Positions 22,692 to 63,621 of a stretch of 64,000 bases of DNA are shown one piece after another. Made by a program: the position numbers and the translations under genes. Position 1 is the first letter of the stretch, and each line of letters opens with the position of its first letter. The notes beneath the pieces are model-generated. The model was not told where the DNA came from. It did not search any database and was given only the letters and a program-made list of their open reading frames with translations. The DNA is from Shinella pollutisoli (GTDB taxonomy: Bacteria; Pseudomonadota; Alphaproteobacteria; Rhizobiales; Rhizobiaceae), in contig NZ_JANFDG010000005.1 of assembly GCF_024609765.1 (NCBI RefSeq), positions 124,001 to 188,000 on the forward strand. Direction: 5' to 3'.

Positions 22692-23297
22692 ATGACGAAA
22701 CCGGCGGGACAGGAAGGCGCAAGGACCCCGGTCCGGCCGGAGCCGGGCGAGGCGGCGTTCACGCTCGCGCCCTGGCTGAAGGACCTGCCGGACGTGCCGC
22801 TGCATCCGCTGATGGTGCATCCTGTGGCGGCGATGGCGGCGACGACCGCGATCGGCTTCGGCGTGGCGAGCCAGTTCGCCGGGCTTATGGTGGGCGCGAT
22901 GCAGGGCGCGACCGCCCGCGCCAGGGCCGCCCTCGACGAGGCGGCCGAGGCGCTGGCGAAGGCGGAGGCCGGGAAGGCGTCCGCCGCGCCCGTGAAGGCA
23001 AAGCCCGCGCTGACGGTCGTGCCGGCGGAGCCGAAGGCGGACAAGCCCGCGCCGGTGCGCAGGCCGCGGGCGGCGAGGCCGGCGGCCGGCAAGGCCGACG
23101 ACCTGAAGGCGATTTCGGGCATCGGCCCGAAGCTGGAACAGGTGCTGAACGGCATGGGCTACCGGTGCTATGCCGACATCGCGGCCTGGACGGCCGCGGA
23201 GGTGGCGAGGATCGAAGCCGAGCTCGGCCTCGACGGGCGGATCGCCCGCGACGGCTGGGTGGAGCAGGCGAAGACGCTGGCGACGGCGCGGGGCTGA
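22692..23297 (+). CDS. HhH-domain accessory protein of the nuo operon
   Basis: 201 residues from ATG 22692, 4 bp after nuoF. The N-terminal part (LAPWLKDLPDVPLHPLMVHP, a weakly hydrophobic AAMAATTAIGFGVASQFAGL) may bind the membrane. A central Ala/Lys/Pro linker follows, then a C-terminal domain DDLKAISGIGPKLEQVLNGM ... ARDGWVEQAKTLA. That last domain is closely similar to the NuoE tail, so a duplication within the operon is evident. Conserved rhizobial proteins of this kind are annotated only as hypothetical or NADH-ubiquinone-related; it is probably an assembly or accessory factor. Confidence 0.8.
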   Translation: MTKPAGQEGARTPVRPEPGEAAFTLAPWLKDLPDVPLHPLMVHPVAAMAATTAIGFGVASQFAGLMVGAMQGATARARAALDEAAEALAKAEAGKASAAPVKAKPALTVVPAEPKADKPAPVRRPRAARPAAGKADDLKAISGIGPKLEQVLNGMGYRCYADIAAWTAAEVARIEAELGLDGRIARDGWVEQAKTLATARG

Positions 23298-40356: not shown

Positions 40357-40938
40357 TCAGTCGTCCAGGCCGCAGGCCCTGCGGCCGATGGCGTCGTCCC
40401 AGGTCTTCAGCTCCGCGAAGAGCGGCTGGCCGGCGAAGGCCCGGCCGTCGCTCTTGCCCTTGCCCGTCAGCACGTTGAGGTCGCACTCGCGCACGCCGTT
40501 CGGATCGAGCGTGTCGTGCGACGCATAGGTATAGCCCGCGACGATGAAGTCGTTGTTGCGATAGGCGATGGTGAGCGACTGGCGCCAGCGGTCGCGTCCG
40601 ACCGACTCGTTTCTCGTCGTCAGCGTGAAGGAACCGTTCGCCAGCGCCGCAAGCGACGGCTCCTGGCCGTAGAGGGTGAGCCCGCCCCATACCGTGTCGG
40701 GCAGCGCCAGCTTGAGCTCCAGCCGGCTCTCGTCGGGATTGGCGAGATAGACGTAGAGCCCGTTGTCCTTGTCGCTTTCGACATCCGCCGGGCGGACGAT
40801 CAGCGCGAGGTCTGAAACCCCGTCCTTGTTCCAGTCGCCGCTCGCCGCGGCGACGATCCGCTCGGCCGGGAAGTCGGCCGCCGCCGCCGCAAACGGCAGG
40901 CCGCACGCAACAACGAGAACGCCCGCAAGCCGTTTCAT
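40357..40938 (-). CDS. periplasmic protein with FG-GAP/VCBS-like calcium motif
   Basis: 193 residues. Signal peptide MKRLAGVLVVACGLPFAAAA. The mature start contains GDWNKDGVSDLALIV, an EF-hand-like DxNxDGxxD loop typical of FG-GAP repeats, and a lone pair of late cysteines (VRECDLNV, GRRACGLDD). Converges on lolD (3 bp between stops). Its upstream gap holds the LexA-boxed promoter of the 28-aa gene on the other strand, so divergent co-regulation is conceivable. Function unknown. Confidence 0.75.
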   Translation of the reverse strand: MKRLAGVLVVACGLPFAAAAADFPAERIVAAASGDWNKDGVSDLALIVRPADVESDKDNGLYVYLANPDESRLELKLALPDTVWGGLTLYGQEPSLAALANGSFTLTTRNESVGRDRWRQSLTIAYRNNDFIVAGYTYASHDTLDPNGVRECDLNVLTGKGKSDGRAFAGQPLFAELKTWDDAIGRRACGLDD

Positions 40939-41015: not shown

Positions 41016-41044
41016 TTGACATGAGAACAAGAATAGAACAAAAT
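41016..41044 (+). promoter_or_regulatory. promoter with LexA (SOS) operator for the 28-aa gene
   Basis: TTGACA (41016-41021) and CAAAAT (41039-41044) are 17 bp apart. The spacer carries GAAC-AAGAATA-GAAC (41025-41039), an exact match to the alphaproteobacterial LexA box GAAC-N7-GAAC (GTTC-N7-GTTC on the other strand). A repressor bound there would block both promoter elements. Confidence 0.75.
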
Positions 41045-41072
41045 AAAAACATAAACGGAAAGGGAGCCGATA

Positions 41073-41159
41073 ATGACCGATTTTCTCCGTGATCTTGCTG
41101 CGTTCGCCTCCATAACGATGTTCGTCGCCAGCGTCTCCATCCTCATGGTCGGCCTCTGA
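41073..41159 (+). CDS. 28-aa SOS-linked single-TM peptide (SidA-like candidate)
   Basis: 28 residues: MTDFLRDLAAFASITM followed by hydrophobic FVASVSILMVGL and TGA. ATG 41073 has AAAGGGAGC 6-9 bp upstream. A short charged N-terminus and one TM are all it contains. It is preceded by a consensus-like promoter with an exact LexA box. In Caulobacter the SOS-induced division inhibitor SidA is also a ~29-residue inner-membrane peptide. The resemblance in size, topology and control suggests an analogous role; sequence homology is not established here. It lies 122 bp before dnaE. Confidence 0.72.
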   Translation: MTDFLRDLAAFASITMFVASVSILMVGL

Positions 41160-41281: not shown

Positions 41282-44779
<3,498 letters not shown>

Positions 44780-48064: not shown

Positions 48065-48079
48065 GAACAAAGGTTGAAC
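48065..48079 (-). promoter_or_regulatory. LexA (SOS) box upstream of dinB
   Basis: GAAC-AAAGGTT-GAAC, an exact GAAC-N7-GAAC (GTTC-AACCTTT-GTTC in dinB orientation). It ends 5 bp before the ATG, so LexA would cover the start region of a nearly leaderless transcript or its ribosome binding site. Confidence 0.75.
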
Positions 48080-63606: not shown

Positions 63607-63621
63607 GAACTGGGCTAGAAC
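63607..63621 (+). promoter_or_regulatory. LexA-like box upstream of aidB
   Basis: GAAC-TGGGCTA-GAAC, an exact GAAC-N7-GAAC, 6 bp before the ATG of the aidB-like gene. Same distance and layout as at dinB. It could also be a chance match, as the region doubles as the -10 zone. Confidence 0.45.

Follow-up and report, generated by a model that had tools for sequence, protein, structure and literature searches.

A 28-codon gene behind a LexA box and upstream of dnaE in Shinella pollutisoli is a very probable orthologue of the Caulobacter division inhibitor SidA

What is the role of a 28-codon gene that lies between an exact LexA box and dnaE in a member of the Rhizobiaceae? The gene belongs to the window, the whole stretch of 64,000 nucleotides analysed here (Shinella pollutisoli, contig NZ_JANFDG010000005.1, positions 124,001 to 188,000), and the original prediction took its product for a possible analogue of SidA. 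In Caulobacter, SidA is described as an inner-membrane protein of 29 aa whose action is on FtsW (PMC4211646). At 29 residues for SidA and 28 for the rhizobial peptide, the two have in common a single TM helix (in the window peptide, a hydrophobic stretch) and LexA control, the latter predicted for the window gene. The promoter, the LexA box and the ORF were all found where they had been placed, together with the ribosome binding site ahead of the ATG and, by inspection, a hydrophobic stretch from about residue 9 onward that agrees with the proposed TM helix. The features are as follows:

41016 to 41021, plus strand: -35 element TTGACA, from a promoter scan; TTGAC is kept in the relatives inspected
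41025 to 41039, plus strand: LexA box GAACAAGAATAGAAC (GAAC-N7-GAAC), between the -35 and -10 elements, from a motif search
41039 to 41044, plus strand: -10 element CAAAAT, from the promoter scan, 17 nt from the -35 element
41059 to 41066, plus strand: ribosome binding site region AAAGGGAG, 5' of the ATG and similar in relatives by eye
41073 to 41159, plus strand: 28-codon ORF encoding the peptide MTDFLRDLAAFASITMFVASVSILMVGL, with one hydrophobic stretch; proposed SidA orthologue
41282 to 44779, plus strand: dnaE (DNA polymerase III alpha), a TIGR00594 match and the conserved downstream neighbour

This is the single sigma-70-type promoter between 40900 and 41400 (mean of 50 shuffles 0.0), and the TIGR00594 match of dnaE in the genome of the window lies at G000:C45:165336-168419. 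Exact GAAC-N7-GAAC boxes number four in the window against 1.52 expected, a count reached by 6 of 100 shuffles, so that a single box is not significant alone; the combination of box and ORF stands above chance because it is conserved in relatives. The putative control of the ORF by LexA is supported by a copy of the same motif, GAACACATGCGGAAC, that precedes lexA in this genome at a distance of about 63 bp from the MLT start. A narrow pattern scan of the genome returned this site as its sole match, which is little informative. In Pfam, with hits accepted up to E 10, neither the window peptide nor any of four relatives matched a family; one weak NCBIfam match, confined to a relative's peptide (E 0.23, to a cytochrome oxidase model), was disregarded.

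Conservation of the peptide and of its box had been proposed as checks, and both bore the prediction out. A search with the 28 residues (E up to 10) gave matches in 32 of 61 genomes, this one included, and in all 20 genomes of the same genus. In each of the 30 loci fetched (L001-L030), even those found at E 0.17 and 0.42, dnaE is encoded 3' of the peptide, and 28 of them carry an exact sense LexA box within 900 bp before dnaE, the other two (L014 and L025) having a box with one base changed. The distance from box to ATG is about 46-51 bp in the loci read; in L027 two exact boxes precede the peptide, which is 670 bp away from the match to dnaE. A comparison of 26 coding sequences with 28 codons each, 24 of them distinct (276 pairs), gives a pN/pS of 0.33 for the reading frame, whereas the two shifted frames give 0.86 and 3.69; second codon positions hold 9% of the differences. 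We take the ORF, from these comparisons, to encode a selected, translated peptide under purifying selection. Beyond the genus, in a same-family set of 16 genomes, 15 were read (G024 being the other); the peptide is present in ten of these and absent before dnaE in five (G025, G026, G027, G028 and G035). The small-genome relatives G025 (2.0 Mb) and G026 (1.1 Mb), loci L192 and L193, have neither box nor peptide before dnaE.

The comparison with SidA requires the corresponding locus in Caulobacter and its family. The region upstream of dnaE was first read in genome G404, chosen by 100% CtrA identity to Caulobacter, and was then followed through 80 named Caulobacteraceae loci, mostly Caulobacter and Phenylobacterium; a Caulobacter dnaE query had given 202 confirmed stretches, of which these are the 80 best. 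The sequence before dnaE contains an ORF of 29 aa, or in a few cases 30, in 77 of the 80 loci, with 55 distinct forms. The three misses are L146 and L157, which carry fewer than 75 bases of upstream sequence, and L189 (Asticcacaulis), whose ORF, read by eye, has 28 codons, differs considerably in sequence and follows a degenerate box. Within 700 bp, 56 of the 80 loci show an exact sense box, against one of 80 control stretches, and many Caulobacter loci have only degenerate copies, for example GAACAAAAGTGGAAT. In Caulobacter vibrioides DSM 9893 (L127) the 29-mer stands behind the exact box GAACATCTTGTGAAC.

By its length, the locus numbers and the box, the 29-mer is probably SidA as published, whose gene is presumably CC1927. 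In the literature, sidA is CCNA_02004 (PMC10769358), dnaE is CC1926 and recN is CC1983 (PMC1839093), and recN is also ccna_02062 (PMC12700426); recN thus gives an offset of 79 between the CC and CCNA numbers, by which dnaE adjoins CCNA_02004.

Aligned as profiles with hhalign, hand-chosen sets of 12 rhizobial and order-level rows and 11 Caulobacteraceae rows match at E 1.1e-5 and probability 82, ungapped, residues 1-22 on residues 1-22. Of 1074 short segments in the window, the one that scores best on the Caulobacteraceae profile is the 28-codon ORF (E 0.02; next 0.29). Its score of 11.3 bits is reached by 7 of 20000 full shuffles, by 31 of 20000 in which head and TM segment are shuffled separately, and by none of 152 hydrophobic short control ORFs, the best of which scores 2.1 bits; the 28 rhizobial-side rows range from 1.8 to 15.1 bits, with L029 under that best control. 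In the reverse direction the similarity is weaker: among 7462 segments, the best 38 rows all coincide with the 29-mer position (E 0.037 to 4.1), and none of L111-L139, most of the genus Caulobacter, is among the best 40. The rhizobial and order-level profile scores two of 20 Caulobacterales loci at 6 bits or more, with a control maximum of 4.2. Pairwise, the window peptide is 21-32% identical to four Caulobacteraceae rows. If SidA is the 29-mer, it has R-[DE], A, [FL], S, [IV] and F-V in register with the window peptide; a block FVWM, which is not known to be required, is invariant in the 11 Caulobacteraceae rows, whereas the window peptide has FVAS instead.

Intermediate sequences have been found in the class, in which 285 of 289 genomes gave a dnaE match. 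Sixty class loci were read out of about 150 listed places, a selection made for larger genomes and varied families, not at random. Of these 60, 12 show an exact sense box no more than 700 bp from dnaE, against none of 60 control stretches of the same length; the antisense box occurs in six, and L070 has both orientations. A short hydrophobic ORF follows the box in all 12 boxed loci, a pairing that is partly circular, since the loose ORF filter also returns such ORFs in 13 box-less loci (not counted). Unlike this pairing, the profile test is free of circularity: the rhizobial and order-level profile reaches 6 bits or more in eight of the 60 loci, all within the 12 boxed, and in none of the 60 antisense (best 4.9) or farther-upstream (best 5.6) controls. 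L074 (4.1 bits), L033 (3.0 bits), L031 and L070 were assigned by position, box and hydrophobicity.

Among 32 further order-level loci, eight of them from the same family, the ORF was counted by eye in 15. An exact sense box stands no farther than 700 bp away in 14 of the 32, against one of 32 control stretches; 13 of these 14 have the ORF and L206 does not. The ORF also occurs in L203, where one base of the box is changed, and in L214, where the box is at -749, while in L200 one base of the box is changed and there is no assignable ORF. With the ORF counted in 19 of 20 Caulobacterales loci, similar ORFs stand before dnaE in 25 families of the class by our own reading, some of them assigned by position only. 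In L030 the SidA-like segment forms the C terminus of a longer ORF (114 aa), located between about 570 and 184 bases upstream of dnaE and preceded by a LexA box, possibly a natural fusion. L066 and L074, from one genus, show a GTTCTC...GAGAAC-like stretch just upstream of the LexA box.

The original prediction proposed an analogue, and the evidence favours the stronger reading of orthology. The window ORF is very probably the SidA orthologue, to judge from the same gene order, the same kind of LexA box, the length, the ungapped profile alignment and the intermediates seen at order and class level. As for the window ORF, dnaE is the direct downstream neighbour of the Caulobacter 29-mer, although the gap to dnaE is longer in the window. 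As a SidA orthologue, the peptide would therefore probably be an SOS-induced inhibitor of FtsW-dependent septation. Taken as a whole, a LexA-controlled rhizobial SidA that blocks FtsW-dependent septation is the best explanation of the locus and a reading we hold to be quite likely; that the peptide inhibits division in the manner of SidA is, considered on its own, likely to a marginally smaller degree. Against this explanation count the low pairwise identity, FVAS in place of FVWM, the uneven profile scores, the lack of the gene before dnaE in five of the 15 same-family genomes read, and an FtsW position 145 that does not stand out (see below).

The claim that the peptide was undescribed stands for a role in division and probably falls for the gene itself. 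In Sinorhizobium meliloti 2011, a Ribo-seq set includes sORF25, in the 5'-UTR of dnaE1, with translation detected (PMC10117765). It has the same position before dnaE as the window ORF and, by this position and its reported translation, is probably the orthologue of the window gene; in the available text of that report the authors mention possible uORF roles, and division is not among them (PMC10117765). A literature search on SidA in rhizobia and on any connection of LexA with dnaE, with subscription papers mostly outside its range, found no rhizobial SidA named, and the same range held no paper on how rhizobia stop division after DNA damage.

Three alternative readings have been weighed against a division inhibitor. 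The strongest, and partly compatible with it, is that the locus serves mainly to make dnaE1 SOS-inducible: a LexA-controlled transcript through peptide and dnaE would raise the replicative polymerase after damage, and the peptide would be a passenger or have a second function. The location of sORF25 inside the dnaE1 5'-UTR (PMC10117765) and the short ORF-dnaE gaps in the Caulobacter loci inspected are consistent with such a transcript, as is the result of a simple scan, which found no terminator-like site between 40900 and 41400, including the 122-nt gap between ORF and dnaE (shuffle mean 0.5). The simplicity of that scan counts against this reading, as do the selection on the peptide and its fused form in L030, and we regard it as rather unlikely.

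A second reading makes the ORF a cis-acting leader, or uORF, that tunes dnaE1 expression through its own translation while the peptide is inert. The same terminator-free gap would suit it, and some S. meliloti sORFs of this kind, translated in a 5'-UTR as sORF25 is in that of dnaE1, have been suggested to be uORFs (PMC10117765). Against it, the amino-acid sequence itself is selected (the in-frame pN/pS given above), related hydrophobic sequence recurs in other orders, the spacing between the peptide and dnaE can be tens of bases or as much as about 600, and in L030 the similar segment ends a 114-aa protein; an inert leader is accordingly improbable. The third reading is an SOS-induced membrane peptide with some other effect, for example on membrane potential, as with DinQ or TisB of E. 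coli. This would fit the size, the one hydrophobic stretch and the LexA box, but the synteny and the profile match to the Caulobacteraceae 29-mers leave this reading little likelihood.

For the preferred reading, a SidA-like inhibitor, the following sequence of events may be proposed. In the undamaged cell, LexA on the GAAC-N7-GAAC box between the -35 and -10 elements would block RNA polymerase. Damage would produce RecA-ssDNA and thereby self-cleavage of LexA, whose loss would free the strong TTGACA promoter for a burst of the 28-residue single-TM peptide. This would insert in the inner membrane like SidA, its short R-D head probably cytoplasmic, and would attach to FtsW, as part of the septal complex of FtsW, FtsI and FtsN, and keep it inactive, the block to septation lasting until repair is done and LexA returns. 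Each of these elements (induction, topology, the FtsW target and the division block) we infer by analogy with SidA.

The proposed target is present. FtsW of this genome is about 47% identical to a Caulobacter FtsW and keeps A31, F145 and A246 (Caulobacter numbering, set by the Met start that fits all three residues), the sites named for suppressors (PMC4211646); their retention is permissive only. In Caulobacter, FtsW F145L is reported to suppress both SidA and DidA (PMC4211646), and a structural model, not of high confidence, places SidA on TM7 of FtsW (PMC13396833). In a first set of genomes, position 145 was F in all eight with the peptide and L in two of three without it. Over 81 genomes, those with the peptide (39) have F in 33, L in three, M in two and a gap in one, and those without it (42) have F in 25 and L in 17; 70 of the 73 genomes in one set entered this count, G043 and G373 being left out and G052 having no match. 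Column 145 ranks only 95 of 347 by association with the peptide, many columns separating the groups better, and co-variation of the peptide with FtsW at 145 is therefore not claimed.

Damage-induced inhibitors of division of the kind proposed here include DidA, YneA, SosA, ChiZ and SulA, and several such inhibitors are reported to be small membrane proteins that act on FtsW, FtsI or FtsN (PMC4211646, PMC13396833). DidA, at 71 aa and SOS-independent (PMC4211646), differs from the window peptide with its 28 aa and LexA box; YneA, SosA, ChiZ and SulA are described as differing in size, domains or target.

The window ORF thus names a single small gene as a candidate for division arrest after damage in rhizobia, and offers a function for a translated, unexplained sORF of S. 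meliloti. The same division brake probably exists in many other Alphaproteobacteria, and the many natural variants of the peptide could show which residues of SidA matter for FtsW. Beyond this, we lean slightly towards a wider picture, in which SidA would be an SOS checkpoint peptide of ancient origin in the Alphaproteobacteria, tied to dnaE and found in Rhizobiales, Caulobacterales and further orders. It would have been lost several times and at least once joined to an N-terminal extension (L030), with one LexA-controlled transcript coupling the supply of polymerase III to a block of septation.

Elsewhere in the window, further exact GAAC-N7-GAAC matches lie at 23136-23150 and 63607-63621 and may be due to chance. 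For dinB of Caulobacter, one study reports that evidence of regulation by the SOS response was lacking (PMC1839093). A second exact LexA box, GAACAAAGGTTGAAC at 48065-48079, lies 5 bp before the ATG of an ORF that by inspection is dinB-like (48059-46743, minus strand). Divergent from the peptide gene is a 193-aa ORF (40357-40938, minus strand) with a signal-like start, and similar ORFs occur in L007, L009 and L012.
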